Shown piece by piece: positions 10,702 to 40,780 of a DNA stretch of 64,000 nucleotides. The position numbers and the translations under genes are program-made. Numbering within the stretch: position 1 is the first letter of the stretch; each line of letters starts with the position of its first letter. This DNA comes from a virus: IMG/VR virus record IMGVR_UViG_3300012936_003490, positions 1-64,000 of that record; one strand, written 5' to 3'. Below the pieces are notes generated by a model. That model searched no databases, was not told the DNA's origin, and saw only the letters and a program-made list of their open reading frames with translations.

Positions 10702-10727
10702 ATTTAAAATACCTTCTACTTGCTTGG

Positions 10728-10735: not shown

Positions 10736-10741
10736 TTTATA
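10734..10741 (-). promoter_or_regulatory. T4-type late promoter box (TATAAATA), leftward
   Basis: Read on the minus strand this is the exact T4 late consensus TATAAATA, ending 32 bases before the tctA ATG. It probably starts the operon tctA, tctC and the oxygenase genes down to 4925. Confidence 0.75.
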
Positions 10742-10780
10742 TCAAAACAAAAAATTTTTTTAAAAAGTGGATAAAAAATT

Positions 10781-12188: not shown

Positions 12189-12195
12189 TACATAG

Positions 12196-17036: not shown

Positions 17037-17037
17037 T

Positions 17038-17877: not shown

Positions 17878-19014
17878 TTAAGTCTCAATTATATCTACAA
17901 TACAATTGTCTAATATCTTGTAATTTTGATTTCTTTGCTTATCATAAAGTTTGGTCTTTCTTGCAAACTCTTTAAGCAAAAAACTATCTTTATATTCTTG
18001 TTTACATTTAGTAAGGTATTGTAATATTTGCTTATTGCTGTTTTTTTCAATTGCTATATTAATAATGTCATCTGGTAAATTTTTTACATTCAATTCACTT
18101 TTTGCATATGGTTTTATATAGCAATCAATATGTAATTCTTTATCATATCCTATGCTTTTCAAGTACTTTTCAATATTGGGTATATCAAATATGTTGTAAA
18201 TATTAAGCAACGTAGAAATATTTAAAGTAAAACTAGGACTAGTATGTTTCATTAAATTACGTAAATTAATGTCCAAGTCTTTCCATTTGCCAGGATATCT
18301 GATATATTCATAAACTTTATCAAATCCATCAATACTAACATTTATTGTACATTGTTCAAAACTAAGTAACTTATCTATAACATTTTGATTAATTTGCAAT
18401 CCATTAGTAGTAATTTTCATACCAAGTCTTTTGTTATAATTATTTTCAATACACCAGTCTAACAATTTTATAAAATGTTTTTGATAAAAAGGTTCACCTC
18501 CAGTTGTCTTAAATTCTTTAAGTCCCTTTTTTATAAGTTCTTTACAATATTCTAATTTTTCATCTTCTTTATATTTTTGATTTTTAGTTGGAACATTGTG
18601 TATACGATCTTGTTGCGGAATATTTTTTAGTAAAGAATTTATTAAACTGCTACTTAAAGGACTGCACATTCTACATGCAAGGTTGCATGTATTATTAAAT
18701 TTTACATCAGCTGTTAAAACTGTCGTAGGTTCTAAATTATAGTTGACGTCAGTATATTTTTTAACAAACTTCTGCCTACTACTTTCTATACCTACATCTT
18801 CTTGCCGATAACAAACTTCGCAGACTTTTGGTCTTTTGTTGTCACGCATATATTGACGAGTAAGAATATGATCTTTAGAAAAAATTCCGTTTTTTATATC
18901 GTTGCCAGACCAATTACCTATATCACTTCTAAGATCAGTTCTACAACAAGGTACAACTTTAGAACTAACTTTTACACAAAAATGATTCCACAACAACGGA
19001 CATGCTGTTTCCAT
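17878..19014 (-). CDS. Radical SAM protein, N-terminal twitch type
   Basis: A 378-residue protein. The N-terminal auxiliary-cluster region has CPLLWNHF at 5-12, VVPCCRTD near 20-27 and VCEVC at 64-68. The radical SAM cluster-binding motif follows as CNLACRMC (Cys110, 114, 117), then TGGEPF at 171-176 and NVSIDG farther on. This order (cysteine-rich twitch first, radical SAM core second) matches the family of twitch domain-containing radical SAM proteins. The substrate is unknown; such proteins usually modify peptides, proteins or sugars by hydrogen abstraction. The ATG at 19014 is preferred; a GTG one codon earlier is possible. It is the last gene (3' end) of the thirteen-gene radical SAM array. 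Confidence 0.85.
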   Translation of the reverse strand: METACPLLWNHFCVKVSSKVVPCCRTDLRSDIGNWSGNDIKNGIFSKDHILTRQYMRDNKRPKVCEVCYRQEDVGIESSRQKFVKKYTDVNYNLEPTTVLTADVKFNNTCNLACRMCSPLSSSLINSLLKNIPQQDRIHNVPTKNQKYKEDEKLEYCKELIKKGLKEFKTTGGEPFYQKHFIKLLDWCIENNYNKRLGMKITTNGLQINQNVIDKLLSFEQCTINVSIDGFDKVYEYIRYPGKWKDLDINLRNLMKHTSPSFTLNISTLLNIYNIFDIPNIEKYLKSIGYDKELHIDCYIKPYAKSELNVKNLPDDIINIAIEKNSNKQILQYLTKCKQEYKDSFLLKEFARKTKLYDKQRNQNYKILDNCIVDIIET

Positions 19015-20126
19015 CACATTTTCCTTTTTGGAATTTTGCTATCTGCTGAACTTACACAACTTTGCGTGATACACATTTTTGGCTCTTTAAATAGATTAAA
19101 GCCTGTTTCGATGTTACCAAGGGGTGCATCATGACAAGAATAACTCCTTTTTACCGAACCGTCAGGCTCCCGTATTATTATTCCGCTAAAACCGGCGTTA
19201 CATGCCCATCCTTCAAATTTATTGAAATTAAAGGCGTTAAAGCGTTCTGCTTGGTCCATATACCATTTGTTACCTTTGGAGTCTTGCATTTCTACTTGCA
19301 TGTGCCAAGGAACACTGGCATCATTTGTACCATTTATTCCTTTAGGTATTTCAAATGTTGGTTTAGGGCGACCCTCCCATTTTCTTTTAAATTCTGTGTA
19401 TGCTCTTTGTGGCATACCGTTCCAGAGTCGTTCAAGTTGATCCTTAGTGTATCCATCAACCACCCTTGACGCAGTCGGATCCGATTGAGGCTTGAGTGTG
19501 ACATTAATTCCTTGTTCGTGGAAGAAGAGAGCGTTTTCCCAATCTCTTTCAAACCATTCAGGAACCATAACTTGATTGATTGTAATTTGTACATCGTATT
19601 CTTGACACAGGATTAATTTGTCTGCAAACTCCTGCATCCTCTCCTTTGTGTTTACATGTTCTGTGTGCAGACTTGCTGTAATACTTGCTCTATGGAACGG
19701 CTTTGCATACTCTACATAAGTTTCAAACCACTTCATTGGACGACTACAGTTGCTCGTCATGTGTATACTTGTATAGTTTGTATTTGCTACATCATCTGCT
19801 AGATGTTTTAGTATGTCCAAGTATCCAGGATGGAAAGTAGGTTCTCCTCCTGACAAGGAGAAGTGGAAAGAATTGAAGCCGTTGAGTCTAGCTTGACGTT
19901 TGATTTCATCCACTGTAAGCAAGCAGAGCTCGGTAGGACGGTGGTCTTTACGATCGCTTCTTGCGTAAGGCCAGCAGTAGGAGCATCTGTAGTTACAGAA
20001 TCTTCCGAGTAACCAGGATACAGTAAATAGATCGCGATAAAGCAGAGTACGTTGACCAACAGAGACAATGTCATCAAAAGGGATCTTAGTAAAGTCATAA
20101 TTACTCCATTTTAAATCTTCACTCAT
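19014..20126 (-). CDS. Radical SAM protein with C-terminal cysteines
   Basis: A 370-residue protein with the radical SAM motif CNYRCSYC (Cys44, 48, 51) and LSGGEPTFHP at 91-100. Four well-spaced C-terminal cysteines (GWACNAG, SYSCHDAP, MCITQSCVSS) suggest a second iron-sulfur cluster of the SPASM or twitch kind. It differs from its array neighbours in having a SWLLGRF lead to the cluster motif and a longer core. Its best partner in the window is 23735-24940. A near-perfect sigma70 promoter overlaps its start region, so it may begin a separate transcript. Substrate unknown. Confidence 0.85.
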   Translation of the reverse strand: MSEDLKWSNYDFTKIPFDDIVSVGQRTLLYRDLFTVSWLLGRFCNYRCSYCWPYARSDRKDHRPTELCLLTVDEIKRQARLNGFNSFHFSLSGGEPTFHPGYLDILKHLADDVANTNYTSIHMTSNCSRPMKWFETYVEYAKPFHRASITASLHTEHVNTKERMQEFADKLILCQEYDVQITINQVMVPEWFERDWENALFFHEQGINVTLKPQSDPTASRVVDGYTKDQLERLWNGMPQRAYTEFKRKWEGRPKPTFEIPKGINGTNDASVPWHMQVEMQDSKGNKWYMDQAERFNAFNFNKFEGWACNAGFSGIIIREPDGSVKRSYSCHDAPLGNIETGFNLFKEPKMCITQSCVSSADSKIPKRKM

Positions 20127-20131
20127 GAATT

Positions 20132-20160
20132 ATTGTAGCACCTTTACATAAACTTGTCAA
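20132..20160 (-). promoter_or_regulatory. Sigma70-type promoter inside the radical SAM array
   Basis: Read leftwards: TTGACA (20160-20155), a 17-base spacer, then TACAAT (20137-20132). It lies in the 34-base gap between two radical SAM genes. The -10 box ends 5 bases before the ATG at 20126, so transcription would begin at or within the start codon, giving a leaderless mRNA. A chance match is less likely because it falls in one of the few gaps. Confidence 0.55.
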
Positions 20161-21102
20161 CTATAGTTTATCTTTAATAAATGTATCTCTTTTATTTTGT
20201 TTACATACTTTTTCGCAACGTGGAATTCTATTATCAGATGTCCAACTATTTTGTATGTCTGTCCAAACTTTTCCATTTAGTGCTTGTTCTACACTTACAT
20301 TTTTTAGATTTATGTCAAACATGTAATCATTATCAATTAAAATTTCTTCAAACCTGTCTTTTGTTTTTCCGCTTACTGGATATTCTAACATTTTTGCATT
20401 AAGATGACAACAGGGTATAACATTGCCCATGTGATTGACAAATATACGTTTTTGATTTGCATATTTACAACTTATGCAAGTAGATTCTTCTACTTCTATT
20501 TTTTTATGTTTTACACCGCCGGTATCTTTTCTATGGCTAATTATAGTTTTGAATGCTTTAAATCCTTCATCTTTGGCCATTTGCCTTGCTATTTCAAGTT
20601 GGTGTTCGTTATGCTCAAAACTTATAAACTGCCAATTTGCTTTGCCGCCGGCGGCAATAAATGCTCTAAAGTTTTGCTGTACTTTTTTGAATTTAGAACC
20701 TTCTCTATATACTTCAGATAATTCGTCGCTTCCGTCTATGCCCCAAGTAACTCTATGACTCTTAGGCAATATTCCTGCAAGTTCAGTCCACCATTTTGTA
20801 GTACGCAAACTACCATTTGTTGCAACATTTATATGTACGTCCCAATCAGCAAAGTGTTTCACAATATCAAAAAATTGAGGATGACTACAAGGTTCGTCAA
20901 CACTACCGCAAAAATTTATAATTTTCATATTAGGAAACATCTGCTTTTGAAACTTTTCTTTAATAGTTTCTATATCAAGATATGTTTTATTTAATATTTG
21001 ATCGGCATATTTAGATTCAACACGAAAACATCCTTTGCATTTTATATTGCAAAAACTTGTAAGTTCTATGTCGATCCATTCTAAGGTATCAGCTGTCCAC
21101 AT
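20161..21102 (-). CDS. Radical SAM protein, short SPASM type
   Basis: A 313-residue protein. CNIKCKGC at residues 18-25 binds the SAM cluster, set close to the N-terminus as in three other array members (22516, 31775, 32830), each with Cys18, 22 and 25. A C-terminal cysteine group (CISCKYAN, VIPCCHLN and RCEKVC) should bind an auxiliary cluster. The usual GGEP motif is replaced by CGSVDEP near residue 64, which the sister at 31775 also has as CGTVDEP, so these may form a sub-family with a different SAM pocket. It overlaps its upstream neighbour by 14 bases. Substrate unknown. Confidence 0.85.
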   Translation of the reverse strand: MWTADTLEWIDIELTSFCNIKCKGCFRVESKYADQILNKTYLDIETIKEKFQKQMFPNMKIINFCGSVDEPCSHPQFFDIVKHFADWDVHINVATNGSLRTTKWWTELAGILPKSHRVTWGIDGSDELSEVYREGSKFKKVQQNFRAFIAAGGKANWQFISFEHNEHQLEIARQMAKDEGFKAFKTIISHRKDTGGVKHKKIEVEESTCISCKYANQKRIFVNHMGNVIPCCHLNAKMLEYPVSGKTKDRFEEILIDNDYMFDINLKNVSVEQALNGKVWTDIQNSWTSDNRIPRCEKVCKQNKRDTFIKDKL

Positions 21103-22501
21103 CTTTAAAAATATCTCTCATTTCCGGAAATGTATCTGCAAATTTTATTCCTCTTTGTTTGTCGCAAAGTTCTAAAAATTCTTTCATTTCAGGCAAACGT
21201 ACACTCCAATCTTCGCTGTCCATAAAACTTAGAATACCTTCTAGTCGTTTTATACCATATTCTGCTGTTCGCCATTTGTTGTAATCAACTTTACCTTTGT
21301 GCCATGTTGGAACACCTAACTGCCGATTCTTTTCCCACCACGGATACCATGACTCATATTTTTTATGACATTCTTCTTTGAACCATTTAGGTAAAACTTT
21401 TACATTTAAATGGCCTGGCCAATATACAAAGTGTTGACTAATACCACCTGCACCAAACGGCCACATGTTAACTTTACGAAAACCTTGTTCTAGTTTCCAT
21501 TGTATTAGGTCTGGAAGATAATAAACGTTAAGAGCTTGAACAGCGCAAGCAATGGTTATTTCTACATTGTTTGTTGTTTCTTTATCCAGTCTATGAAATG
21601 TGTTTACTTGATTAGCCCATTCGCTAGGATAACGTATATAACTGTTCATTTCTTTGATGCTGTCAATGCTGTAGTGAAATCTTACCAATTTAAAATGACT
21701 CCAAAGTTCAAATAAATCTTCACGCCATTCTACACCATTTGAATTGTAGCGTAGTTCTAGATCTTTCGCATATCCCATCTTAATAGCATGTTCGAGTATT
21801 TCGTAGTGTTCTTCAATAATAAGACTTTCACCGCCAGCAAAATAAATTTGTTGCATACTTGGCATCTGCTCATAAAACTGTTTCCAAAATGTTGGATTTT
21901 GTTTATGCCAATTGTAACTACTACCGTTAGTGCTACCTTTGTCTTTCCATTGCATAATCTCTTTTAGTGATTCATTTTTTACAGCAGGAAAAATTGCTTT
22001 GTAATCTTTGATCCAACCAGAGCTGTCATGCGGACTACACATAACACATGCTAATTGACACTTAGTTCCAAAACGTAAATCAATGTATGCTAGATTAGGA
22101 GGAACGCTTCCGTCCGGATTTGTTTCTTCTAATATCTTGTTAATATCAACACGCTTACTCCAATATCTAGTTTCCCATTGTCTTTTACTTTTATGGCCAG
22201 CCGCTTCTTCTTTGTAACACTTTAAACAACTTGGTGGTTGTTCGCCATTAAGCATTTGCAGACGAACATTCTTCATATATGTGCTATTCCATGCTGTTTC
22301 AAAATCACTTACATTTAAATTGTTGGGTTTGCCGTCATCAGTTTTCAGAATACCTACTTGGCCGCCATGTTCTTTATCATTTGTAGGACCAACACTACTA
22401 GCATTTGCTGTACAGCATACACGCATACTGCCGTCTGGTCTTGTGCTAAGATGTACCCAGGGTAATAAGCAAAAAGTGTCTGAGGGATATTTATCGTTCA
22501 T
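21089..22501 (-). CDS. Radical SAM protein, N-terminal twitch type
   Basis: A 470-residue protein, the longest of the array. The N-terminal set is CLLPWVHLS at 11-19, RVCCTAN at 28-34 and SCLKCYKEEA at 91-100. The radical SAM motif is CQLACVMC (Cys148, 152, 155), and FAGGESL appears later in place of GGEP. A 100-residue C-terminal extension holds Trp-rich segments (WYPWWEKN) and is not present in the shorter relatives. The protein resembles 27531-28778 most in its first 150 residues. Function unknown beyond radical SAM chemistry. Confidence 0.85.
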   Translation of the reverse strand: MNDKYPSDTFCLLPWVHLSTRPDGSMRVCCTANASSVGPTNDKEHGGQVGILKTDDGKPNNLNVSDFETAWNSTYMKNVRLQMLNGEQPPSCLKCYKEEAAGHKSKRQWETRYWSKRVDINKILEETNPDGSVPPNLAYIDLRFGTKCQLACVMCSPHDSSGWIKDYKAIFPAVKNESLKEIMQWKDKGSTNGSSYNWHKQNPTFWKQFYEQMPSMQQIYFAGGESLIIEEHYEILEHAIKMGYAKDLELRYNSNGVEWREDLFELWSHFKLVRFHYSIDSIKEMNSYIRYPSEWANQVNTFHRLDKETTNNVEITIACAVQALNVYYLPDLIQWKLEQGFRKVNMWPFGAGGISQHFVYWPGHLNVKVLPKWFKEECHKKYESWYPWWEKNRQLGVPTWHKGKVDYNKWRTAEYGIKRLEGILSFMDSEDWSVRLPEMKEFLELCDKQRGIKFADTFPEMRDIFKDVDS

Positions 22502-22515
22502 ATTGTACTTATTTC

Positions 22516-23745
22516 TTAAGATATGCTCTCTAATTGTTTATTGACTTGCATTAATTTTTCATCACGACTTCTTGTTTCCGATCCGCAATGCTTGCCACAT
22601 CTTACTATTCGAGGAAATTTTTTATCAAAAGTTGTGTTGTCAAAACTTTTGTTTAGATCATTCGTAAAAAACCTATGATCCATAATTGCAGATAAAGTAT
22701 GGAACTTTACATTATTCCAATCATCTGCATACTGATTCTCATAGTGAGACAAACGTTCATAATCACGTCTATCGCTTATCCAATCGTATTCTTTTGATTC
22801 ATGAGGTTGAATAGGATAATGATAAAATGTGCTAAAATAACAACACTGCCAAACTCTGCCTGTATAGTCTATACTTATTTGACGTTTGTTAAACCATTCG
22901 CACTCGATCTCAGTGCTGTTAATATTTTCTTTTACTGAACGTTTATACCAAGGTTTATTAGGATATTCGCTTCCTATTTGTTTATCTTCTGGTATTACTA
23001 GTTCTGCATACTGAGAAATTGTTTTGATATCTTCTTTGTTTATATTTTTCTTTTTTTGACTCAAATTATCTATTTTTATTTTATTTGTGTTATGGCGCAA
23101 TCTAGATCTTCTAATTTTAAATTTATGAAATCCTAGCTGTTTAGCCATTGCTTTTGCTTTTTCTATTTGATGTTCGTTATGCTCAAAGGCAATGAAACTC
23201 CATACACATCTGACGCCACTTGCTATACATGTTTTAGCATTTTCTATAACTTTATCAAAATTAACTCCTCGTCTATACAGTTGGTGTGTATCATCGTCTA
23301 CACCATCTAGAGCAAAAACAATTACACTAGTTTTATCATATTTTTGTTTAATAATTTTGCACAGAGACGTCCACCATTTTTCGTCATGTAATCCTCCGTT
23401 TGTTTCACACATAAAACGTAATTTTTCTGTAAGTTTATTTTTTAATCTATATTGAGAAAACTTGTTTACATTATCAGCAATTTTATCTACTATTGTATGA
23501 CAATCAGGATGAAGTATAAAATCTCCGTATGTTCCTGTAAAGTTTATGTAACGTGCATTTTGTGATACAGTTGTATCAAAGATATTGTCTATAAACATTT
23601 TATCTAACAAACCTGCTGATCCAACTTCTATAAAAGGATTAATTTCATCTGTTCCCTGCACAAATCTTTGGCAGTCTAAACATCTGCTGTTACAATTGCT
23701 TGTAATTTCTAGATGTATTCCTTGGTCGTGCATATCAAATTGCAT
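22516..23745 (-). CDS. Radical SAM protein, short SPASM type
   Basis: The start at 23745 (MQFDMHDQG) is preferred because it overlaps the upstream stop; an ATG 18 bases earlier is possible. The 409-residue protein has CNSRCLDC with Cys18, 22 and 25, the same positions as in the genes at 20161, 31775 and 32830. FTGTYGD replaces the GGEP motif. Later come ECEWFNKRQISIDYTGRVW followed by QCC, and CGKHCGSETR, as an auxiliary-cluster set. It is longer than the other members of this type because of an insertion near 220-260 with many Lys and Glu. Substrate unknown. Confidence 0.8.
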   Translation of the reverse strand: MQFDMHDQGIHLEITSNCNSRCLDCQRFVQGTDEINPFIEVGSAGLLDKMFIDNIFDTTVSQNARYINFTGTYGDFILHPDCHTIVDKIADNVNKFSQYRLKNKLTEKLRFMCETNGGLHDEKWWTSLCKIIKQKYDKTSVIVFALDGVDDDTHQLYRRGVNFDKVIENAKTCIASGVRCVWSFIAFEHNEHQIEKAKAMAKQLGFHKFKIRRSRLRHNTNKIKIDNLSQKKKNINKEDIKTISQYAELVIPEDKQIGSEYPNKPWYKRSVKENINSTEIECEWFNKRQISIDYTGRVWQCCYFSTFYHYPIQPHESKEYDWISDRRDYERLSHYENQYADDWNNVKFHTLSAIMDHRFFTNDLNKSFDNTTFDKKFPRIVRCGKHCGSETRSRDEKLMQVNKQLESIS

Positions 23746-24940
23746 ACTCAACACCAGTAACATGATTAGACATTAAAGATTTAAAAGTTTGTGCATCACT
23801 GCTTTTTGTTGCACACAGGCCGCATCTACAAATCATATTAGGACAAATTATAGGTTCTAATGTTCCTGATGCAAGTTGCTTTTCTACACTGTCTGTAAAT
23901 TTTTTGTAATCTGTAATAGATCCAACTGCTCCTCTTTGTTTTCCAATTTTAGCTTGACATGTTTGATGATGAAAAATTTGATCAGTTTGACTTTCAAGAT
24001 GTAAGAAAAACCAATTCACTCCACAATACCAATCTAAAAATCGTGTATCTGAAACATATCTTTGTTGTTCTGTTGTGCCGCATTTCAAACCGCAACTAAG
24101 TTGATGGTTACTACAACAATGTCTACCTTCTATAGTATATGTTTTAGTTTTATCTGCCTGTAATTTTTTAAATGTTTCTCCTACATCTTTTTTCATTTTA
24201 CGATGAAGTTTGACCTCTTTGTTAACATTTTCAACTTTTTTAGTTGTGGTTGTAGCAATTTTTGTTTTACTGCTTTTACTGTTCTTATTTTGCCAGTAGT
24301 TTTTTATCCAACTACTCTGCTCATAACTGTAGGGTAAACCGTTTATTACCCTCGGCATATACTTGACATCATGTTCTTCCATTACATCTATAAAATCTAA
24401 ACACTCTTTCCAATAATTATCATATGGATGCATCATTAAATTAACTTTAAAACTTTTTAATTCTTGCTTTAATAGAAGAGTATTTTCTCTCACTTTTTGT
24501 TTGATTTTTTCTTTGCTATCACAGTGGTAACTTAATGTTATACCTCTAAAATTTTTTGCAAGTAGCGGAATATGTTTTTGTGCAAAACTACCGTTAGTTG
24601 TAAGTATAGTGTACACATCATAATCAAAGTCTTGAAAACTTTCTTTGAGATAAGAACTAAAGTCAACAAAACAAGGATTTGCTGTTGGCTCTCCACCTGT
24701 AAGACTTAAACTTGCTGTCTTTTCTGTTCTATATGGCATGATAATTTTTAAGTAATCTTTAACTAAGTCCACACCCTTAACTAGTTCGTTAAAACTAGGA
24801 AAAGGACTTACAAGGTCGTGTCTATCATCTCCGCAGTAAGCACAATCAAAATTACACCGTTTTCCTGTATCCCAAGTGATAATAAACTGATTTGTTTTTA
24901 CAGGATCAATGCTGTTATATGTTCCGTTTTCTCTATCCAT
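23735..24940 (-). CDS. Radical SAM protein with extended C-terminal cysteine region
   Basis: A 401-residue protein. The radical SAM motif CNFDCAYC (Cys29, 33, 36) is followed by LTGGEPTANP near 100-109. After residue 265 it is cysteine-rich (HCCSNHQLSCGLKC, WYCGVNW, TCQAK, CPNMICRCGLC), enough for two extra clusters. The layout resembles 19014-20126. It overlaps the start of 22516 by 11 bases and has its own start just after the stop of the upstream twitch gene. Substrate unknown. Confidence 0.85.
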   Translation of the reverse strand: MDRENGTYNSIDPVKTNQFIITWDTGKRCNFDCAYCGDDRHDLVSPFPSFNELVKGVDLVKDYLKIIMPYRTEKTASLSLTGGEPTANPCFVDFSSYLKESFQDFDYDVYTILTTNGSFAQKHIPLLAKNFRGITLSYHCDSKEKIKQKVRENTLLLKQELKSFKVNLMMHPYDNYWKECLDFIDVMEEHDVKYMPRVINGLPYSYEQSSWIKNYWQNKNSKSSKTKIATTTTKKVENVNKEVKLHRKMKKDVGETFKKLQADKTKTYTIEGRHCCSNHQLSCGLKCGTTEQQRYVSDTRFLDWYCGVNWFFLHLESQTDQIFHHQTCQAKIGKQRGAVGSITDYKKFTDSVEKQLASGTLEPIICPNMICRCGLCATKSSDAQTFKSLMSNHVTGVEYAI

Positions 24941-26174
24941 CTAAATATTTCCGATATCTCTTGTTTAATTTATTCAAGTCTGTATTACGTAGTTTGTCTT
25001 GAAGTTTTGTATAACTTTTAAAATATTCAAATTCACCTGTGCGTAACTTTCTGTTTTTATCAAAACTTAAAATATTTTCAATCTCTTTGAGTACAAAAGG
25101 ACTAGATGATAGAGTTTTTTTGACATACTTTCTATCTTTGTCTGTCAAAAACGCTGTAGACAGCCAGGATTGTTCTACCTGTGCATATAAAACTTTAATT
25201 CCTCCACATGATCTAAACCAGGCATCAAACTCTGCAATTTTTTTGACATTTAAAATATTATACATTTGCATTACAAAACTTGTTTGTATTTTAACATTTT
25301 CAAAACGTTCAGCTAAATGCAGAAACTTTTCAATGTTATTTTTTACAATATTCCAGTTGCCGTTAGATCTTACATATTCATAATCTTTTTCTGTACCATC
25401 TAAACTTATCATAATAATGCATTTTTTAAATTTAGATACAATTTTATCAAAATCTTTAGGATAAATCGTTCCATTGGTTGTAAAAACTAGTTCGCACTCT
25501 TGTACATTTACACTATTAGAAAATTTATCTATAGCCAACCAAGATTCATCATGTAATAAAGGTTCTCCTCCTAATAACTTCATACGTTTAACATTTTCAA
25601 AAGGAACTTGTTCTACAAAATTATTTGTGTCTTTGTTTTTTTTGTAAAGATGTTGATTAGCATCTTTGACTATTCTATCGCTTATTTTATCAGGATCGGC
25701 ATCAATATATTCATTTTGATGTTTAACCATTTCTTTTGCAATTTGAGAACTGCTTCCAGGTTTACACATTCTACATTGTAAGTTACATAGATTACTTGCT
25801 CTAATATCAAGACCTAAAGGTGCATTAAATTCATTTCCTGTTTCAACTGATAGTTTAAGGCCTTTTCCTTTTGTTAACCGTCTGGCCATATGATAATAAA
25901 TGCGTCTTGCATTATAGCCTAATTTTTTTTCAATGTTTAAACAACTCTTACAAAACTCTGGAACTACACCATCAAGCATTTGTTGCCGCACATTTTTCAT
26001 ATAATCACTTGTCCAATAATCTTTATAATCTTTAAAAGTAAGATCTATTGTTTCTTTTGTATTGCGAGTCTCGCAACAGGGACGTAGTAAGGATTTTTTT
26101 GCATCTCCTTTATAAAATAAATGCATAAAAGGAGCGTAGCACAGGGGCTCAGACTGTTGGTTTTGGTTTTCCAT
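24933..26174 (-). CDS. Radical SAM protein, N-terminal twitch type
   Basis: The ATG at 26174 is chosen over a TTG one codon earlier. The 413-residue protein has CYAPFMHLF at 12-20, RPCCETR at 31-37, FCKSC at 74-78, and the radical SAM motif CNLQCRMC (Cys130, 134, 137) with LLGGEPL later. The pattern of a short cysteine set, a basic helical spacer and the core is the same as in 26149, 27531 and 28775, which look like serial duplicates. It overlaps its upstream and downstream neighbours. Substrate unknown. Confidence 0.85.
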   Translation of the reverse strand: MENQNQQSEPLCYAPFMHLFYKGDAKKSLLRPCCETRNTKETIDLTFKDYKDYWTSDYMKNVRQQMLDGVVPEFCKSCLNIEKKLGYNARRIYYHMARRLTKGKGLKLSVETGNEFNAPLGLDIRASNLCNLQCRMCKPGSSSQIAKEMVKHQNEYIDADPDKISDRIVKDANQHLYKKNKDTNNFVEQVPFENVKRMKLLGGEPLLHDESWLAIDKFSNSVNVQECELVFTTNGTIYPKDFDKIVSKFKKCIIMISLDGTEKDYEYVRSNGNWNIVKNNIEKFLHLAERFENVKIQTSFVMQMYNILNVKKIAEFDAWFRSCGGIKVLYAQVEQSWLSTAFLTDKDRKYVKKTLSSSPFVLKEIENILSFDKNRKLRTGEFEYFKSYTKLQDKLRNTDLNKLNKRYRKYLDG

Positions 26175-27543
26175 CAAAGTGGGCTCCTGGTCTAGATCCT
26201 TCAGTTACATTTGTTGGATCATATCTGTCAAAATATCTTTGTAGCATTGGTTCAATAGTAAGCGTATCAGTTCCTCTGATTTTATTCAACGCTAATTCTG
26301 CCCTCACAAAATCATTTGTATATCTTACTTTGCGCTCATGTGTTTGTGTTTTATCAAGTTCACTGTGTAGCAAATCAAACCATTGTTGTTCGTCCTTGTT
26401 CATATCAAACTCAACAATACACTCTTGAACTTGCTGTCTAATATAATCCTTGTGGTCATCGTCTAACCAACTTACACTTAGGTACCAAGGATCAACTATA
26501 GGATTAAATGTTACACCATTATGCTTGTTTGAATACTTACGTGATCCTTTAAGGAACCATTCAACATTACGCTTTACTTGGAATGCACTTACAGGCTGGA
26601 ATACATGCATAATACCTGCCCACTTTAGGTTAGGCAATGTAAATATTTTGTCAAATACTTTTTGTTTTTTATCCCATTTAGTACCGTCACGTAAAAATTC
26701 GTCTGTGGCTCCTACGCCATCTACACTAATGTTAAAGCTCACTTCTTTAAACTGAGCAAGTAAGTCATAAATCCTACTTGGTAAACTTGTGCAGTTTGTT
26801 ATTTGATGCAGTCTTACATTGCGAGCTTCTCCGCTGTCTACAATCTTTTTCATAATATTGTAAACACGAGGATCAATAAGTGTTTCGCCTCCACTCATTT
26901 TCAAACGAAATACTTTACTAAAGTCTAAATTACTTACCACATCAAACTTAGGATCTGAATAATCTATTTGCTGTGCTTTACGCATTGCATTCTTACTTTG
27001 TGTAACCATATCCCAATGACTCCAACCCTGTATTTCTGGGTTAGCAAGCACTTCTTGCTCAATTTGGTTACTCCAAAGGCTATTACAACTGCGACATTTC
27101 AAGTTACACAGTTTACTAGGACGTAGATCAATATCCACAGGTTTTTCAAACTCAAGTGTACCCTTTTGAATATCCCAATGTATATCTGTAAAGCCTTCTT
27201 TAAGTTCTAGCTCGTAGCGTTTTATATAATCTAATCTGTCGCTTTTATGATAGATGCCTTCACTTTCCCAACGTCCGCACCACCATTCACAAGACTCTGG
27301 CATTTTACCATCAAGAAAACTTTGACGAATTTCTTGCATTGTCTCGCCTTTCCAAAATTCTTCATGCTGATCTTTAAGACTAGATTCAGTATCCCATCGT
27401 CCAATCACATGACTCATACAACAAAGTTTATATCCTCTGTTGTTTGCATTTATGTATGTGTGCATAAACGGTGCAGGACAGAATTTTTTGTTTGGAACGA
27501 TGCTTTCTAAACGTTCTGCTTCTTTTTTATCTATTTTAGCCAT
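26149..27543 (-). CDS. Radical SAM protein, N-terminal twitch type
   Basis: A 464-residue protein. N-terminal cysteines are CPAPFMHTY at 22-30, KLCCMSH at 39-45 and SCEWWCG near 84-90; the radical SAM motif is CNLKCRSC (Cys146, 150, 153), and MSGGETL stands where GGEP is usual. The C-terminal 60 residues are Arg/Lys-rich and end in a Pro-rich tail. It belongs to the same serial group as its neighbours, with the largest N-terminal spacer between the cysteine set and the core. Substrate unknown. Confidence 0.85.
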   Translation of the reverse strand: MAKIDKKEAERLESIVPNKKFCPAPFMHTYINANNRGYKLCCMSHVIGRWDTESSLKDQHEEFWKGETMQEIRQSFLDGKMPESCEWWCGRWESEGIYHKSDRLDYIKRYELELKEGFTDIHWDIQKGTLEFEKPVDIDLRPSKLCNLKCRSCNSLWSNQIEQEVLANPEIQGWSHWDMVTQSKNAMRKAQQIDYSDPKFDVVSNLDFSKVFRLKMSGGETLIDPRVYNIMKKIVDSGEARNVRLHQITNCTSLPSRIYDLLAQFKEVSFNISVDGVGATDEFLRDGTKWDKKQKVFDKIFTLPNLKWAGIMHVFQPVSAFQVKRNVEWFLKGSRKYSNKHNGVTFNPIVDPWYLSVSWLDDDHKDYIRQQVQECIVEFDMNKDEQQWFDLLHSELDKTQTHERKVRYTNDFVRAELALNKIRGTDTLTIEPMLQRYFDRYDPTNVTEGSRPGAHFDGKPKPTV

Positions 27544-28778
27544 TCAGTTAATTCCACACATGATAAATCATCGAAAGATTGACTTCGTTGTTCATCAAGT
27601 GTTGTTGACATATATTTAAGCTGATCACGTTTTTTATATTTTACGTCTGGTTCAATCTTTTTTGCCATCTCAACATAACGTTCAAATTCTTTAACTTGCC
27701 TACAGTCAGTATTTTGCCATTTTGTTAGAGTACATTCTAGTAAACTACTAGGTAAAAACTTTGCGGCAAGTTCACTGTCTTTAGGACGTAGATTTAAATT
27801 AAAGTCAATACGGGGTATGTAATTTTTCTTTAACAACCAAGGATACTTTTCTGTATAGGATTTTAATGTAGTATACAGTTCTGGATTATTATGCCAATTA
27901 TAGGCTGTTACTACTGTACTTGTTCTAACTCTAAAATGAGGATTTTCATACATTCTATGTTCATCTGCAAAAGCAAGAAACTCCATAAATCTTTCTTGCC
28001 ACTTACTCCACGTAAACGGATACCGAATATAGTCGTAGGTTTCATTGCATCCGTCAACACTTACATTTAGGTCGACACCCTTAAAATGTTTTAACCTTTC
28101 TAACACCGCACGAACAAACTTGGTTCCATTTGTAGTTATTAACAATCTAATATTTTTAGCAAAGTCATTGTCAATTGCATAATCAAGAACATCAAGAAAT
28201 TCTTTACTTATAAAAGGCTCACCACCTGTGACTTTTAGTACTTCAATTGTGTCTAACAATTCAATCACATATTCTTTACGTTTTTGGCTTACAGTTGCAG
28301 TGTCTTTCTGCTTGTAGTTTGTAAAAGATTTCCAATGCTCAGGCATAGGCTTTTCATTATCTCTGTACCAATCTATAGCTGAAACAAGTTGATTACTACT
28401 ACTTGGGTCACACATTCTACAAGCAAGATTACAAGTGTTATCAAAACGCAAATCTAAATATTTAATTTTTTCATCTGCGTCAGGATTAACAAACTCTTTA
28501 AATTTATCTACAGTGTAGGTGTGTCTAAAACTTAGTCCGTCGTTGCGCTCTCTTGCATAACAAACTTCGCAAGCAGGATGTTCTTTTCCTTGTTGCATGT
28601 ATGCCCGTATCTCGTCCATGCTTGTGCTTTCAAATGCTTGTTTTATACTGTTAGCATCATCTTTAAAATTAAAGTAACTTTCGCTGTTACAACAAGGACG
28701 ATAACCTCCGCCTACACTTCCGTTTACGTGTATCCAAGGAAGTATGCAAAATGTTTTACTATTTGTTGGTTGCTTCAT
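27531..28778 (-). CDS. Radical SAM protein, N-terminal twitch type
   Basis: A 415-residue protein with CILPWIHVNG at 11-20, RPCCNSE at 27-33, CEVCYARE at 70-77, then the radical SAM motif CNLACRMC (Cys116, 120, 123) and VTGGEPF later. Its ATG overlaps the upstream stop as ATGA, a 4-base overlap. This and the protein at 17878 have identical CNLACRMC motifs and similar spacing although they lie about 10 kb apart, which suggests duplication within the array. Substrate unknown. Confidence 0.85.
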   Translation of the reverse strand: MKQPTNSKTFCILPWIHVNGSVGGGYRPCCNSESYFNFKDDANSIKQAFESTSMDEIRAYMQQGKEHPACEVCYARERNDGLSFRHTYTVDKFKEFVNPDADEKIKYLDLRFDNTCNLACRMCDPSSSNQLVSAIDWYRDNEKPMPEHWKSFTNYKQKDTATVSQKRKEYVIELLDTIEVLKVTGGEPFISKEFLDVLDYAIDNDFAKNIRLLITTNGTKFVRAVLERLKHFKGVDLNVSVDGCNETYDYIRYPFTWSKWQERFMEFLAFADEHRMYENPHFRVRTSTVVTAYNWHNNPELYTTLKSYTEKYPWLLKKNYIPRIDFNLNLRPKDSELAAKFLPSSLLECTLTKWQNTDCRQVKEFERYVEMAKKIEPDVKYKKRDQLKYMSTTLDEQRSQSFDDLSCVELTEWLK

Positions 28779-29815
28779 CTTATCTTCTCTAATGTTTTTT
28801 TGTATTTTTTTAACATTTTAAGAGCAGATAGGTCTTCATGCTCTAAGTGAAGTTGCAAATATCTTGTTACAAATTGATTTTTTATTTTCTTAATAAACTT
28901 TTCTTTCTTGTTTTTTGGCAATATTTGTATATCTAAATAATAAGGCTGTTGTAAAATATCAAAACGTGTGGGAAAATACTTTCTACTAAATTCTAAATAA
29001 TTATTAATATTATGTATATTTAAATTATGAACTACAAAATGAAAAGATATTTCAATATTAGTGTGTTTTGCTTTAAAATCTTTCCACCATTTTATATTTT
29101 CGATTACTTTTTTCCAATTAGTTCCATACCTTACAAATTCTGCGGTTTTGCCTTCTCCATCTAAACTTATATCTACATTTAATTTTTTGCATTTGACAAA
29201 TATATTTTGCCATTCTTTATTAGGCTTTACACTACAATTTGTAACAATTTGTAAATTTATATTTTCTAATAATAAACTTTGTAAAAATTTGATATTCCTT
29301 GGCTCCATAAAAGGTTCTCCTCCAAGAATTTTTACCATCTCTACTTTCTTTAATTCTTGGGGAACAAAATCAAAGTCTGTATATACAACTTGCTTTTTTG
29401 GTTTGGCTTTATTTGCTCCTATTGAATTTACAGCATCAATATCTTTCCACCAAGTGGTGCTGTATGCCGCATCACATGTAACACAGGCAAAATTGCAACT
29501 ATTACTTAATCCAACTTCTATATATCTTATTTCAGGATTATTTTTGTTTATGTTACTAAAGTCTTGATTAGCTGTTTGTCTATAACTTTTCCTACCTAAC
29601 TTTTCATCTCTATAACATTTTTCACAACCTTTGATATATTCTCCTTTTAACATTTTATTCCTTAGCTCTGTCATCTTAGAACCATAAAAATAATCACGAG
29701 GAGATATCTTATCTATATATTCTTTATCAGAAAACCTACAGCAAGGTTTGTTCCTGCCACCTACATTTGTACAACTGTGGATAAAAGGTAACGGACAATA
29801 AGTTTTGTTTACCAT
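28775..29815 (-). CDS. Radical SAM protein, N-terminal twitch type
   Basis: A 346-residue protein. The N-terminus has CPLPFIHSC at 7-15, KPCCRFS at 23-29 and GCEKCYRDE at 63-71. The radical SAM motif is CNFACVTC (Cys107, 111, 114) and LGGEPFM follows later. It is the shortest of the twitch-first members. The C-terminus is Lys-rich. Its stop overlaps the next ATG as ATGA and its own start is within the stop of the gene at 29809, so the run from 31023 to 27531 is closely coupled. Substrate unknown. Confidence 0.85.
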   Translation of the reverse strand: MVNKTYCPLPFIHSCTNVGGRNKPCCRFSDKEYIDKISPRDYFYGSKMTELRNKMLKGEYIKGCEKCYRDEKLGRKSYRQTANQDFSNINKNNPEIRYIEVGLSNSCNFACVTCDAAYSTTWWKDIDAVNSIGANKAKPKKQVVYTDFDFVPQELKKVEMVKILGGEPFMEPRNIKFLQSLLLENINLQIVTNCSVKPNKEWQNIFVKCKKLNVDISLDGEGKTAEFVRYGTNWKKVIENIKWWKDFKAKHTNIEISFHFVVHNLNIHNINNYLEFSRKYFPTRFDILQQPYYLDIQILPKNKKEKFIKKIKNQFVTRYLQLHLEHEDLSALKMLKKYKKTLEKIR

Positions 29816-31023
29816 ACCATTTCCTCAACTGACTTTCCAAAGACTTTAGAAAAATTTTGATTTTTAATAGTGTCAATTCTATGTGTATAATATATAAATG
29901 CATCTACATCTTTTTTAGATTCTCTTGAATTTTGTAAAGCATGTATAATCATATCTGCCATTTTAATTGCACCTTGACGTTGTAAACTTTTCTCCTGCGA
30001 AAATAGTTTTTTCCTAATTTTTCCAACATGTTTTATAAGATTGTTTTTTTGATTGTATAAAACATCTATGCCTAAATATGTAGGATACTGAACAAAACTA
30101 TGATGCAGTCTGTCTACCGGTAATAATAACATATCGTTAATAATATTTTCTAAATCTAAAATTTGATAAGGTGTTATTGTGTTAGTAGCTTCTAAAATTG
30201 TTTTTTTGTTTTTTTTCTTAAACGTTTGAATATTTGTGATTATATTCTCATATATCCCGTTCCTAAAATAATTATAAAGATTACTACCTCCATCTACACT
30301 AATTTTTATTTGTGATCTACCAAAGTTATTCATATATTCGCTTAGTTTTTCATAATCAACAGGAGTGTTAAAATTGCTAACAATATTCACCCAAATTTTA
30401 TTTCTATTTGGGTGTGCTTGTATGCCTTCTAAAAATTGCCAAAATTGTTTTTGATATAAAGGTTCGCCACCTCCAACATCTATTCTTTTAAGGTTAGGAC
30501 AGTTTTGTATCAAATCAGTTACAAGATCATTTACTTGTTCTTTAGTCCATGATTGATTAGGCCACTGCCTTACCAAATTCTTTATGTCATGTGTGTAATC
30601 ATCTGGCACACGTTCTACTCGTTTTAAAATACTGTTCCATTTACTTGAATAATCAGGAGCACAGTGTCTACAACTAAGGTTACATGCATTACTAAATCTT
30701 ATCTCTATGTATTCAATATTACGTTGTTTAATTTTATTTTGACGATTCAACTTCGTAACCATTTTTTGATTTTGATTACTTTTTTGTCTATAACTTTCTT
30801 GTCCCCTTGATTCTTGATCTTGACAACTTTTACAATGCTCTGGCCAGACACCTTTTGCAAGTGATTGTCTTATTGCTCTAAAATTATCATTATTGATAAA
30901 TTTGCTAGGAGCTACACCTTCAGATATGTTTGCTAGAGAGCCTGTGCCTCTAGGACACATTGTAATTCTATCGTCAGGTTTAAAGTTTACGGCATGAAGT
31001 GCAAAATAACAAGGCAATTTCAT
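29809..31023 (-). CDS. Radical SAM protein, twitch-like N-terminus
   Basis: A 404-residue protein. The first cysteine set is reduced: CYFALHAVNF at 5-14, a single TMCPRG in place of the usual CC at about 21-26, then HCKSCQDQE at 63-71. The radical SAM motif is CNLSCRHC (Cys114, 118, 121) with VGGGEPLYQ later. With one cysteine missing, the auxiliary cluster may have a free site or a non-Cys ligand, so the enzyme may act differently from its neighbours. The ATG overlaps the stop of the SGNH gene by 4 bases. Substrate unknown. Confidence 0.8.
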   Translation of the reverse strand: MKLPCYFALHAVNFKPDDRITMCPRGTGSLANISEGVAPSKFINNDNFRAIRQSLAKGVWPEHCKSCQDQESRGQESYRQKSNQNQKMVTKLNRQNKIKQRNIEYIEIRFSNACNLSCRHCAPDYSSKWNSILKRVERVPDDYTHDIKNLVRQWPNQSWTKEQVNDLVTDLIQNCPNLKRIDVGGGEPLYQKQFWQFLEGIQAHPNRNKIWVNIVSNFNTPVDYEKLSEYMNNFGRSQIKISVDGGSNLYNYFRNGIYENIITNIQTFKKKNKKTILEATNTITPYQILDLENIINDMLLLPVDRLHHSFVQYPTYLGIDVLYNQKNNLIKHVGKIRKKLFSQEKSLQRQGAIKMADMIIHALQNSRESKKDVDAFIYYTHRIDTIKNQNFSKVFGKSVEEMVW

Positions 31024-31775
31024 TTTATATTACCTATGTGATTATATAAAAATCTTGCTAGTTCAGTATGTCCTTCTTCTAACGGGTGGTTATCAGGGCC
31101 AATTGAGTAATTCTTATCTTGGCACCATTCTAAGATTCCTTGTTCTCCTAGTGGCCATATATTTTTATTCAGATCAATACATCCGTATGTGTCTATTATT
31201 TCTTTTGTAATATGATTTGGATACCTTTTGTTCCTGCATTTTTCTATCGTGCGATTAATATCATCAAATGTATGATGGTTCATTGTTAACATAACGTAAG
31301 GAATATTGTAACTTTTCAATAACATTTGTGTATCTAATATATTATTCATAGTATAAAATGCACTGCAATGTTGAGAGAAATAAATTTGATGTTTGGCAAG
31401 ATGTTTGGTACTATCATTAGGAAGTTCACTCATCCTTATATCTACCCATTTCGCCATAGATTTTTCCTTCATAAACCTGGATGGCATAAGCGGAATATAG
31501 CCGGTATTATATTCGTTTGCTGGCCAATCTTTATTATATAATTCCCATCTACTAGTCGAACTCCATTGAATAACAGCTATCTTGACTTTGTCTTTATTTT
31601 TTATTATACTTCTAAGTGTAGTTCTTGCTATTCTTGCATTACTTGAACCTCCCATAGCATCGTTAAGATGACTAGGATATCCTAGAAGTTGTGTAAGGAT
31701 ATTACTATATCTACTCTGTCTTTTTTGTTGTAATTCATGTCCATCAGTATAACTGCATCCGTTTGCGTATAACAT
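31020..31775 (-). CDS. SGNH-hydrolase-like protein
   Basis: The start at 31775 (MLYANG) is chosen because its ATG overlaps the upstream stop as TAATG; in-frame ATGs farther upstream lie inside the upstream gene. The 251-residue protein has block I GCSYTDG at 6-12 with Ser8 as nucleophile, a GGSSNARI at 42-49 as block II, and a C-terminal DNHPLEEGH at 228-236 giving the Asp/His pair. It belongs to a family of SGNH proteins seen in marine phages. Its position inside the radical SAM array, between the twitch-first and SPASM types, suggests a step in the same pathway, for example removing an acyl group. Substrate unknown. Confidence 0.75.
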   Translation of the reverse strand: MLYANGCSYTDGHELQQKRQSRYSNILTQLLGYPSHLNDAMGGSSNARIARTTLRSIIKNKDKVKIAVIQWSSTSRWELYNKDWPANEYNTGYIPLMPSRFMKEKSMAKWVDIRMSELPNDSTKHLAKHQIYFSQHCSAFYTMNNILDTQMLLKSYNIPYVMLTMNHHTFDDINRTIEKCRNKRYPNHITKEIIDTYGCIDLNKNIWPLGEQGILEWCQDKNYSIGPDNHPLEEGHTELARFLYNHIGNIK

Positions 31776-32833
31776 TATAATTCCTGCATTCCTATGTGCT
31801 TGCCTATAGGTATACTTTTCTTTGAGCATTGTTTTATACATGTAGACAAGCACCCATTCTCAAAAGAATATTTTTCACTCCAACTATTGACTAAGGCATC
31901 TGAATAATATTCACCTGCTATTATATCATCTAAGTTGTATTTGTGAAGACTGTTAAAACCTACTCCGTATTTTAAAAAAACTTTATTTTGCATCTCAGTA
32001 TAATAGGTGTATCCTCTTGTCAAAGGATTTGATACAAAGCAACACGGCCAAATTGCACCGTTGTAATCTAAAAACATTTTCTTTTCTTGTCGGAAGTGAC
32101 AATCTATATCAATTTCGTTACCGTAGCTTGCAACCAAATTATCAACACTAGATATATCTAATCTTTTACTAGCTCTATTTGGTACAGTTTTAATTCTGTT
32201 ACGAAAAGCCATTGCATTTACTATACCATTTTCACTGTATGTAGATCTATCTCTTCTAAGTACAAAACGTTTCATGCCTATTTTTTTTGCAATTTTTTTA
32301 CAACGCTTAACATCTTTTTTGTTCCAAGGAAATTCTAACATTTGCCATAATGCAGATCCTCCTGCTTTTATAAAAATTTCTGCATGACTTATTATATCAT
32401 CCCAATTTTCTACACCACGATACAAAAAATGATTTTCTTGCATTCCGTCAATGCTAAATCTAACCATATGTTGCGGATGCCTACATAATTTCTCGGCAAG
32501 CTCAACGTAAAATTTATTACTACGCAAACTTCCGTTCGTGTGTATGCTTACAGTGCATTGAGGATTGTATGTATAGATAGTGTCTAGTATATCTAAGAAA
32601 TATTTATGAGCCAAGGGTTCATCTACTGTACCGCAAAATTCAATTTCTTTAATTTGTCTTCCTACATCTGTATCAAATATGTTTTTGAAAACGTCTGTAG
32701 GCAAAAATTTAGTTCCTTCTTGCTTGAATAAAAATTTTGCATTAGGTGCAACCCTTACACAACCTTGACAATCTGCATTGCAAAAATTAGATATCTCTAC
32801 CTGTAATACATCTATCTGTGTCAAATACTTCAT
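31775..32833 (-). CDS. Radical SAM protein, short SPASM type
   Basis: A 352-residue protein with CNADCQGC at 18-25 (Cys18, 22, 25) and CGTVDEPLAH near residue 65 in place of GGEP. C-terminal cysteines include IDCHFRQEK, WPCCFVSN, and CLSTCIKQC. The C(G)(T/S)VDEP segment is shared with 20161-21102, so these two form a clear pair. Its stop overlaps the SGNH start and its start overlaps the next gene's stop, all within a few bases. Substrate unknown. Confidence 0.85.
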   Translation of the reverse strand: MKYLTQIDVLQVEISNFCNADCQGCVRVAPNAKFLFKQEGTKFLPTDVFKNIFDTDVGRQIKEIEFCGTVDEPLAHKYFLDILDTIYTYNPQCTVSIHTNGSLRSNKFYVELAEKLCRHPQHMVRFSIDGMQENHFLYRGVENWDDIISHAEIFIKAGGSALWQMLEFPWNKKDVKRCKKIAKKIGMKRFVLRRDRSTYSENGIVNAMAFRNRIKTVPNRASKRLDISSVDNLVASYGNEIDIDCHFRQEKKMFLDYNGAIWPCCFVSNPLTRGYTYYTEMQNKVFLKYGVGFNSLHKYNLDDIIAGEYYSDALVNSWSEKYSFENGCLSTCIKQCSKKSIPIGKHIGMQEL

Positions 32834-33912
32834 GTAAATTGTTCTGCATATGGATCAAATTCGCTTCCGCATTTTTGAGCGCAAACTCCTAATTTTCCTT
32901 GGGCAATACTTTCTTTTTTCCAACTATCTGATATGCTGTTAATTAATTTTCCATTAACAACTGTTTTAATATCATTATTGATAATATTTATACCCTGTTT
33001 TCCTCCTGCAAAATCTATATGATCCCAAATTTGTTCAACACGAGGATCATTATGCCACCATTTATACATTCGTCCAGCTGTCCAACAACATGGCATCAAA
33101 AGTCCTTCGGCAGTTACAAAAATACTACCTTGTTTTGCTACCTTACAAGTTACACTACATTTGTCTAGATAATTGGCCATACTACCGTAAGATTTTTCAA
33201 TCTCTTTTTGTTTAAGCAATGCAAGATTTTGATTTTGTTCTTGTGTTGGTTTTTGTAGTTTTTGTGTATCTGACCCTTTGCGATTTACAGCTTGATGTTC
33301 ATTTTTTGGTTTTATATCAGTTGTAATAAATCTGCCTGATTTCTTCTTTACAAACTTTTCACATCCCCATACTTTTGCAAGTGCTTCTGCTTGTTCAACT
33401 TGATGTTCGTTGTGCTGAAATATTAAATAATCCCATCGAGCTCTACCTCCGGCATCAATAAATGCTCGCATGTTGCGTTCTACATTGTCCCATACAACAT
33501 TCTGCCTGTACAAATGATTAGTGTCCCTAAGGCCGTCCACGCTGAAAATAACAGCACCCATCCTGCCAAAAACTTTGGCCAGTTCACGCCACCATGCTTC
33601 ATCTTTTGCTCCTGCATTTGTATTCATACTAAGCCACATGTTAGGGTTATGTGTTCTAAAATAACGAAAAACTTCAAGTGTATCTCGCGCTATTATAGGG
33701 TCTCCTAGGTTACCACACATATACATTGTTTTTAATTGTTTTATAAAAGAAGGTTTAAATATCTTAACGCAATCTTCGTGAGACAATTCTGCATTTGTAA
33801 TATGAGGGTTGTCTGCACCTCCATTCATATTGCGATCACACATAGGACATGCGGCTTGACAACGTTGGGTAATTTCTAAATGTACTTCTTTAATATCTTC
33901 GTATCTATACAT
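32830..33912 (-). CDS. Radical SAM protein, short SPASM type
   Basis: A 360-residue protein with CQAACPMC at 18-25 and MCGNLGDP near residue 65 where GGEP usually stands. This CGNLGDP differs from the CG(T/S)VDEP of its sisters, but the position is the same. A SPASM-like C-terminus is present: CSVTCKVAKQ, LLMPCCWTA, and VCAQKCGSE. It is the first radical SAM gene read in the array, directly after an SGNH gene and the large glycosyltransferase gene. Substrate unknown. Confidence 0.85.
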   Translation of the reverse strand: MYRYEDIKEVHLEITQRCQAACPMCDRNMNGGADNPHITNAELSHEDCVKIFKPSFIKQLKTMYMCGNLGDPIIARDTLEVFRYFRTHNPNMWLSMNTNAGAKDEAWWRELAKVFGRMGAVIFSVDGLRDTNHLYRQNVVWDNVERNMRAFIDAGGRARWDYLIFQHNEHQVEQAEALAKVWGCEKFVKKKSGRFITTDIKPKNEHQAVNRKGSDTQKLQKPTQEQNQNLALLKQKEIEKSYGSMANYLDKCSVTCKVAKQGSIFVTAEGLLMPCCWTAGRMYKWWHNDPRVEQIWDHIDFAGGKQGINIINNDIKTVVNGKLINSISDSWKKESIAQGKLGVCAQKCGSEFDPYAEQFT

Positions 33913-40772: not shown

Positions 40773-40780
40773 TATTTATA
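40773..40780 (-). promoter_or_regulatory. T4-type late promoter box (TATAAATA)
   Basis: Read leftwards, the exact T4 late consensus TATAAATA ends 24 bases before the ATG at 40748. It lies across the 3' end of the gene at 40776. Confidence 0.7.

Follow-up and report, generated by a model that had tools for sequence, protein, structure and literature searches.

The window analysed here comprises bases 1-64000 of the 76,956-base virus record IMGVR_UViG_3300012936_003490 and carries thirteen radical S-adenosylmethionine (radical-SAM) genes in a single minus-strand array (17878-33912), numbered R1 (17878) to R13 (32830). Three of the products, R13, R4 and R2, form a core that recurs in other viruses and on chromosomes of Bdellovibrionota, while the other ten are variable. 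It is this structure that appears to be new, not the gene count, and because the core recurs the array is probably not a one-off but part of a chemical tailoring system that has yet to be studied. Enzymes of the radical-SAM superfamily use SAM and a [4Fe-4S] cluster to form a 5'-deoxyadenosyl radical which abstracts a hydrogen atom; their reactions are among the hardest in biology and usually one or two such enzymes serve a pathway. The virus is T4-like, with PHROG matches to baseplate wedge, baseplate hub, SbcC/SbcD-like and late sigma factor proteins.

Composition and integrity of the array

As the sequence-only reading of this DNA had described, thirteen tandem genes stand next to tail-fibre genes, all of them open and each specifying exactly one CxxxCxxC motif (13/13), with auxiliary cysteines also kept in every product. 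In protein searches with hidden Markov models (HMMs), the curated cut-off of Pfam Radical_SAM (29.5 bits) was exceeded by twelve of the thirteen; a six-frame DNA scan of the whole 76,956-base record detected exactly these thirteen and no others, eleven of them above the cut-off. R4 (21089-22501) barely passes at 30.3 bits and R8 (26149-27543) falls below at 18 bits; against NCBIfam model NF033640 (N_Twi_rSAM; cut-off 170 bits, whole-protein score) these two weakest scorers reach 425 and 240 bits, respectively. From motif and Pfam or NF033640 matches, all thirteen are assigned to the radical-SAM superfamily and are predicted to cleave SAM.

An N-terminal twitch/SPASM-like cysteine set is found in seven members (R1, R4, R7, R8, R9, R10 and R11), which score 234-425 bits with NF033640, a sequence subfamily without an assigned reaction. 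R2, R3, R5, R6, R12 and R13 lie outside it, at 54 bits or less each. R3, R5, R12 and R13 possess a C-terminal SPASM-like set; with the SPASM profile (PF13186, cut-off 21.5 bits) R3 scores 24.3 and R12, just under, 20.0, and R5 and R13 are unreported though their cysteines align. R2 (19014) and R6 (23735) have C-terminal cysteine sets of other types. The members are as follows, with cluster labels from the viral comparison described below.

17878-19017, minus strand: R1, N-terminal-twitch radical SAM (Radical_SAM 59.7 bits, NF033640 247.7 bits)
19014-20126, minus strand: R2, radical SAM type A, core member in cells (cluster r8; Radical_SAM 54.2 bits)
20161-21102, minus strand: R3, SPASM-type radical SAM, semi-conserved (cluster r7, 10 members; Radical_SAM and SPASM above cut-off)
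21089-22501, minus strand: R4, N-terminal-twitch radical SAM, core (cluster r1; NF033640 424.8 bits)
22516-23763, minus strand: R5, SPASM-type radical SAM, variable (Radical_SAM 44.9 bits)
23735-24940, minus strand: R6, radical SAM with type B C-terminal cysteines (Radical_SAM 35.2 bits; CxxxCxxC at 29, further Cys 275-376)
24933-26177, minus strand: R7, N-terminal-twitch radical SAM (NF033640 241.1 bits)
26149-27543, minus strand: R8, N-terminal-twitch radical SAM (NF033640 240.2 bits; Pfam below cut-off)
27531-28778, minus strand: R9, N-terminal-twitch radical SAM (NF033640 261.7 bits)
28775-29815, minus strand: R10, N-terminal-twitch radical SAM (NF033640 257.7 bits)
29809-31023, minus strand: R11, N-terminal-twitch radical SAM (NF033640 233.6 bits)
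31020-31853, minus strand: SGNH-like/DUF6071 gene within the array (DUF6071 E 1e-5, just under cut-off)
31775-32833, minus strand: R12, SPASM-type radical SAM, variable (Radical_SAM 35.3 bits; cluster of two, the window and contig L010 only)
32830-33912, minus strand: R13, SPASM-type radical SAM, core (cluster r0; Radical_SAM 33.5 bits)

The close packing noted earlier holds, with a range slightly wider than the 1-17 bases first given: neighbours overlap by 4-29 bases, and there are gaps of 34 and 14 bases. The interrupting gene read as SGNH is present, its match being a weak one to DUF6071; the 79-base overlap at this gene depends in size on the choice of start. Genes of the SGNH/DUF6071 type are present in other loci too, one of them above the cut-off.

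The same gene order was found in a contig from another sample, L010 (IMGVR_UViG_3300021368_001595), which aligns collinearly with the window for 21 kb, 95% of the nucleotides being identical. Because the ratio of non-synonymous to synonymous substitution rates (dN/dS) between window and L010 is 0.03-0.21 across all thirteen genes, every member is under purifying selection and none is decaying. An assembly artefact is ruled out by the independence of this second contig.

A recurring core in viruses and Bdellovibrionota

A seven-member alignment (A1) proved too diverse for scanning viral contigs, and alignments of the R13 family and of R4 were used instead. At least 553 stretches encoding a relative were found with the R13-family alignment and at least 595 with that of R4, which suggests a common marine lineage and excludes an array unique to this phage; in 22 records of related marine viruses the number of Radical_SAM matches is 8-20. 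The 82 viral loci compared below are the best 80 of the R13 scan together with L010 and the window. Since they were picked by similarity to R13 (65-97% identity in the best 80), the ubiquity of R13 among them is built in. Neighbours were counted from longest-ORF (open reading frame) gene calls on slices of up to about 21 kb.

The 434 radical-SAM ORFs of these loci fall into 112 clusters at 50% identity. Two are large, r0 (R13, 82 members) and r1 (R4, 57 members); most of the others have fewer than ten members, and gene order changes among loci. R4 is present in 57/82 loci at a median of 79% identity to the window protein, and lies downstream of R13 in 37 of the 44 loci that include the next 8 kb. 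The other ten members look like exchangeable accessories because they differ from virus to virus. Apparent N_Twi_rSAM fusions in long viral frames (889-1037 amino acids) proved to be adjacent separate ORFs merged by read-through counting. Several N_Twi_rSAM-type genes, including VPHK566_0308 (annotated hypothetical), occur in Vibrio phage K566 (L091:11989-21450), from seawater and oysters, which could serve as a laboratory model if the phage is available.

The number of genes is not without precedent. The Campylobacter phages CP220 and CPt10 carry 11/12 radical-SAM genes, with five-gene modules interpreted as interchangeable (Timms et al. 2010, PMC2853527), and the T4-like marine viral genome TARA_ERS488813_N000010 carries 12, cited in the relevant passage as an iron-sulphur example with the array left unanalysed (Nishimura et al. 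2017, PMC5332604). With up to 20 in related IMG/VR records as well, the window does not hold a record. CP220/CPt10 resemble the window in being T4-like and in having 11-12 such genes in exchangeable modules; CPt10, scanned here, gave 11 Radical_SAM matches, but the members compared are shorter and distant (best local-HMM score 30 bits), none exceeds the NF033640 cut-off and the R13/R4/R2 core was not found. The TARA genome, also marine and T4-like, has a similar number of such genes. In pelagimyophages, PMC7029224 describes a host recognition cluster with radical-SAM cassettes that differ among close relatives, in the same kind of position, between a VrlC-type protein and tail genes. The corresponding region of Pelagibacter phage Mosig (MT647606) is likewise a mixture of glycan/tailoring genes and radical-SAM cassettes, with annotated MoaA-like genes, a carbamoyltransferase, an ArnB-type aminotransferase and a homolog of n0, a partner family described below; it differs in having only two Radical_SAM matches and no NF033640 member. 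No function test is reported in the passages of PMC2853527, PMC5332604 and PMC7029224 on these genes.

Nor is confinement of the system to phages supported: the core is also found on chromosomes of Bdellovibrionota, which have arrays of their own. When prokaryote genomes were searched with the R4 alignment, 28 loci were obtained, the majority in Bdellovibrionota and several on contigs of metagenome-assembled genomes (MAGs). Reciprocal best hits to the window were found for R4 in 27 of these, for R2 in 20 (mostly 56-68% identity) and for R13 in 20, and for any other member in at most five. The chromosomal core is often accompanied by the GT-A-like family n1, and by n0; in the minimal forms (L110, L111) n1 stands with three radical-SAM genes. 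The contigs bear housekeeping genes, phage tail genes being absent in most cases; in L201, on a 937-kb contig, MurA (by sequence reading) lies about 11-12 kb from the module. Chromosomal partners differ from those of the window in including glycosyltransferase 2, B12-radical SAM and membrane-protein pairs. Of 16 genomes scanned, the 11 taken via chromosomal Bdellovibrionota-type loci have 10-42 NF033640 matches each, and in some the arrays are dense (ten or more relatives; in G024 about 13 matches in 29 kb); 14 control genomes gave no NF033640 match above the cut-off. These copies suggest a cellular use of the system.

The cellular distribution is patchy. R2 was found in 8/144 sampled Bdellovibrionota genomes and R4-like matches in the same eight, one of which (G133) has only a distant R4-like match, with R2 near a contig edge. 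R4 was found in no class-mate of two marine MAGs (0/239 and 0/228 genomes, the MAGs themselves excepted and classes taken as labelled). No common marine host operon of which the array could be a copy was thus found in these two sampled classes (about 470 genomes). As to a copied, characterised host operon, the cellular relatives are uncharacterised in the literature searched, and no publication on a radical-SAM array system in Bdellovibrionota was found in a search that left out most subscription journals.

In the R4 tree, whose bootstrap was unsettled, the window belongs to a block (support 98/98) made up of 18 viral rows and one labelled as cellular; the Bdellovibrionota rows lie outside this block. 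Three of the cellular loci, L094, L108 and L109, stand among viral rows, and L112 and L116 beside them. These five, counted among the 28, look like mis-binned phage contigs and are therefore set aside as evidence for a cellular system.

Partner genes and the proposed product

Upstream of R13 on the same strand lie the following genes.

33905-34612, minus strand: gene between R13 and the 73-amino-acid gene, no Pfam or PHROG match; 89.8% amino acid identity to the L010 copy
34609-34830, minus strand: n2, 73-amino-acid protein, conserved over its whole length and present in 53/82 viral loci
34817-37438, minus strand: n12, two GT-A-like domains and a methyltransferase-like domain (n1+n1+n0), from sequence reading and cluster relations
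37922-39437, minus strand: glycosyltransferase-like gene pair (n4, n4), with a weak Mannosyl_trans3 Pfam match, below cut-off, for the first gene only

Either n0 or n12 is present in 80/82 viral loci and either n1 or n12 in 75/82; of the 74 loci with 2.5 kb of upstream sequence, 66 have n0 or n12 no more than four genes ahead of R13. The n4 family occurs in 27 loci, mostly paired. No Pfam or NCBIfam match was obtained for n0; the term methyltransferase-like reflects visual inspection of its motifs and the deposited annotation of its Mosig homolog as a methyltransferase. The n1 family has a conserved DxD and a predicted fold that is GT-A-like at weak scores. For a homolog (L075:164-1093; model pLDDT 93) the best PDB matches were weak (best E 1.2e-3, TM about 0.3); most of them were GT-A glycosyltransferases or sugar nucleotidyltransferases, and the peptide S-glycosyltransferase SunS and a polypeptide GalNAc-transferase were included. 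Among viral proteins in BFVD, two phage proteins that are uncharacterised (1e-14) ranked first, and glycosyltransferases made up most of the matches after them. Further partners in viral loci are a QueC-like PP-loop protein (31 loci), a NodU-type carbamoyltransferase (20 loci), an SDR-like protein, a nitroreductase and others. SIS domain and APS-kinase-like genes also count among the partners, and glycosyltransferase family 2 genes lie near cellular copies. This partner set may tend towards glycan or sugar-linked chemistry, a reading we hold tentatively.

The AlphaFold2 model of R4 (pLDDT 86) matched SkfB best in the PDB (6.6e-5), followed by viperin, GDGT-MAS, MoaA, SuiB and BlsE. The modelled fold supports superfamily membership and leaves the substrate unchosen, because the matches are to several radical-SAM enzymes, each over part of the protein.

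The explanation favoured here, at somewhat less than even chances, is a modular pathway, kept in the host-recognition region, that tailors a sugar-linked surface product and in which three enzymes are constant and the accessory ones can be exchanged. This division is proposed because r0 and r1 stand out as large among the 112 clusters and the core is common to Bdellovibrionota; a glycan-type pathway, because of the GT-A-like n1, the NodU-type carbamoyltransferase, the SIS, APS-kinase-like and glycosyltransferase family 2 partners; and a place in the host-recognition region, because the array adjoins tail-fibre genes, where pelagimyophages have their host recognition cluster (PMC7029224). The earlier suggestion of one pathway is thus retained for R13, R4 and R2 with the GT-A-like and methyltransferase-like genes, and not for the other ten, which differ between viruses.

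In such a pathway the core, with the GT-A-like transferase, the methyltransferase-like protein and n2, would make or transfer a sugar-linked unit, and the changing set of radical-SAM enzymes, with carbamoyltransferase, PP-loop enzyme, 2-oxoglutarate (2OG) oxygenases, SDR and nitroreductase, would alter its chemistry in each virus. Each radical-SAM enzyme would use SAM and its [4Fe-4S] cluster to form the 5'-deoxyadenosyl radical for hydrogen-atom abstraction, and the twitch/SPASM cluster may help in electron transfer or substrate binding. The product would most likely decorate the surface of the infected cell, blocking or altering a receptor against rivals, or the virion. The genes, their motifs and conservation, the core-plus-variable pattern and the cellular counterparts are observed directly, whereas we infer the shared pathway, the glycan-type product and the biological role. 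In its fullest form the proposal is doubtful: a new system of three core enzymes, a new GT-A-like family (n1) and a methyltransferase-like family (n0), in marine T4-like viruses and some Bdellovibrionota, whose sugar-linked product each virus varies by swapping additional radical-SAM enzymes, up to about fifteen in number. As many as twenty or so radical-SAM enzymes are retained under selection beside the host-recognition genes of these viruses; surface decoration, if true, would mean that viruses drive a surface chemistry of a new kind, and the core-plus-variable design narrows the first candidates to R13, R4, R2 and the partners n1 and n0.

Several points weigh against this explanation. The glycosyltransferase assignment of n1 comes from weak fold matches, without a Pfam family; the best match of R4, SkfB, is a peptide maturase, so that a peptide or protein substrate fits equally; R2 was found in only 8/82 viral loci, partly because the slices end; and the presence of R13 in all 80 viral loci was built in by the search.

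The main rival, which we consider unlikely, is maturation of virion proteins: radical-SAM enzymes and 2OG oxygenases would modify the tail fibres or the neighbouring 4981-amino-acid protein, with effects on stability or on binding to the receptor. Peptides are frequent substrates of twitch/SPASM enzymes, many being maturases of ribosomally synthesised and post-translationally modified peptides (RiPPs), SkfB among them. The array adjoins tail-fibre genes in many relatives as in the window, genes of the Asp/Asn beta-hydroxylase type are present both in the window (5949-6470) and in Bdellovibrionota arrays, and the SunS and GalNAc-transferase matches of n1 would also suit a protein substrate. However, the same core is found on Bdellovibrionota chromosomes mostly without phage tail genes, and carbamoyltransferase and sugar-nucleotide-type partners would be unexpected for protein modification. 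Were virion proteins the target, phage protein maturation of a new kind would be at work.

That nothing beyond the core is shared, the ten variable genes being independent cassettes with their own substrates at a hypervariable site, is less probable again. It would account for the 112 clusters and changing order in the best 80 viral loci, and it accords with the cassette differences among pelagimyophage relatives (PMC7029224) and the interchangeable CP220/CPt10 modules (PMC2853527); yet this one enzyme type has built up repeatedly at a single site in the viruses, and also in arrays of Bdellovibrionota that have the partner families in common, for which a shared scaffold is a better fit than a random collection.

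That the phage makes a peptide natural product, RiPP-like or otherwise, as a toxin or signal is improbable because no precursor gene fits in the array, the largest gap being 34 bases. Neither did Pfam scans reveal an RRE match, and n2, which alone among the small proteins recurs, is absent from most modules on chromosomes and from all clearly chromosomal loci; its conservation over the whole length, with no variable core region and no leader/core pattern, excludes it as a precursor. The abundance of RiPP maturases among SPASM/twitch enzymes speaks for such a product, as does a B12-binding radical SAM beside a Bdellovibrionota array, whose best match, far below the cut-off, is a RiPP C-methyltransferase subfamily.

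Nucleotide or DNA modification, or viperin-like antiviral chemistry of the 3'-deoxy-3',4'-didehydro-nucleoside triphosphate (ddhNTP) type, is the least likely and very improbable. Weak viperin-profile and QueC-like PP-loop matches and the viperin among the R4 fold matches speak for it; against it, no score with viperin profiles (NF038283/TIGR04278) exceeds 39 bits, the cut-off being 180, the partners are not those of a nucleotide-modification system and the array sits with structural, not replication, genes. Viperin or QueE membership is ruled out by scores far under the family cut-offs.

Neighbouring genes and other observations

Beyond the two ends of the array the window contains the following.

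40776-46374, minus strand: tail-fibre and virion structural genes flanking the array just upstream (PHROG tail families)
4925-17799, minus strand: mixed further tailoring-type genes beyond the array, with two interposed plus-strand genes (Pfam and reading by eye)
5949-6470, minus strand: Asp_Arg_Hydrox, 2OG-oxygenase type (Pfam; other oxygenase-like genes there read by eye)
12872-13543, minus strand: short AMP-binding protein (Pfam)
13527-14366, minus strand: Aminotran_4, aminotransferase class IV (Pfam)
15145-15729, minus strand: SDR, weak (Pfam)

The adjoining aminotransferase class IV and short AMP-binding protein (12872-14366, minus strand) are an unusual pairing for a phage. TctA of a tripartite tricarboxylate transporter (PF01970, 6.7e-95) is specified at 9265-10701 (minus strand), beside a gene (8204-9340, minus strand) that is TctC-like by sequence reading, without a Pfam match; clusters of TctA and a TctC-like gene were found again in a few other viral loci. 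The 4981-amino-acid ORF (47019-61964, minus strand) occupies the position named VrlC in the pelagimyophage article (PMC7029224).

Amidinotransferase-like proteins beside radical-SAM genes were seen in a Bdellovibrionota array (L199:14266-15342), a marine viral locus (L073:14091-15149) and CPt10 (L211:5412-6383), with distant mutual similarity (E about 1e-11); for this family (n139) no Pfam or NCBIfam match was obtained, and the reading follows similarity to the CPt10 protein so annotated. A small membrane-type protein pair recurs beside Bdellovibrionota arrays (L202:6023-7385, L203:7042-8506, L204:15257-16607 and L208:9917-11244), and the one member scanned has no Pfam match. Outside the window, the virus record has a HemC-like (porphobilinogen deaminase) gene at G000:75575-76318 (L009:14576-15319), without a PHROG match, which directly follows a gp46-like recombination gene and whose product shows about 37% identity to bacterial HemC.

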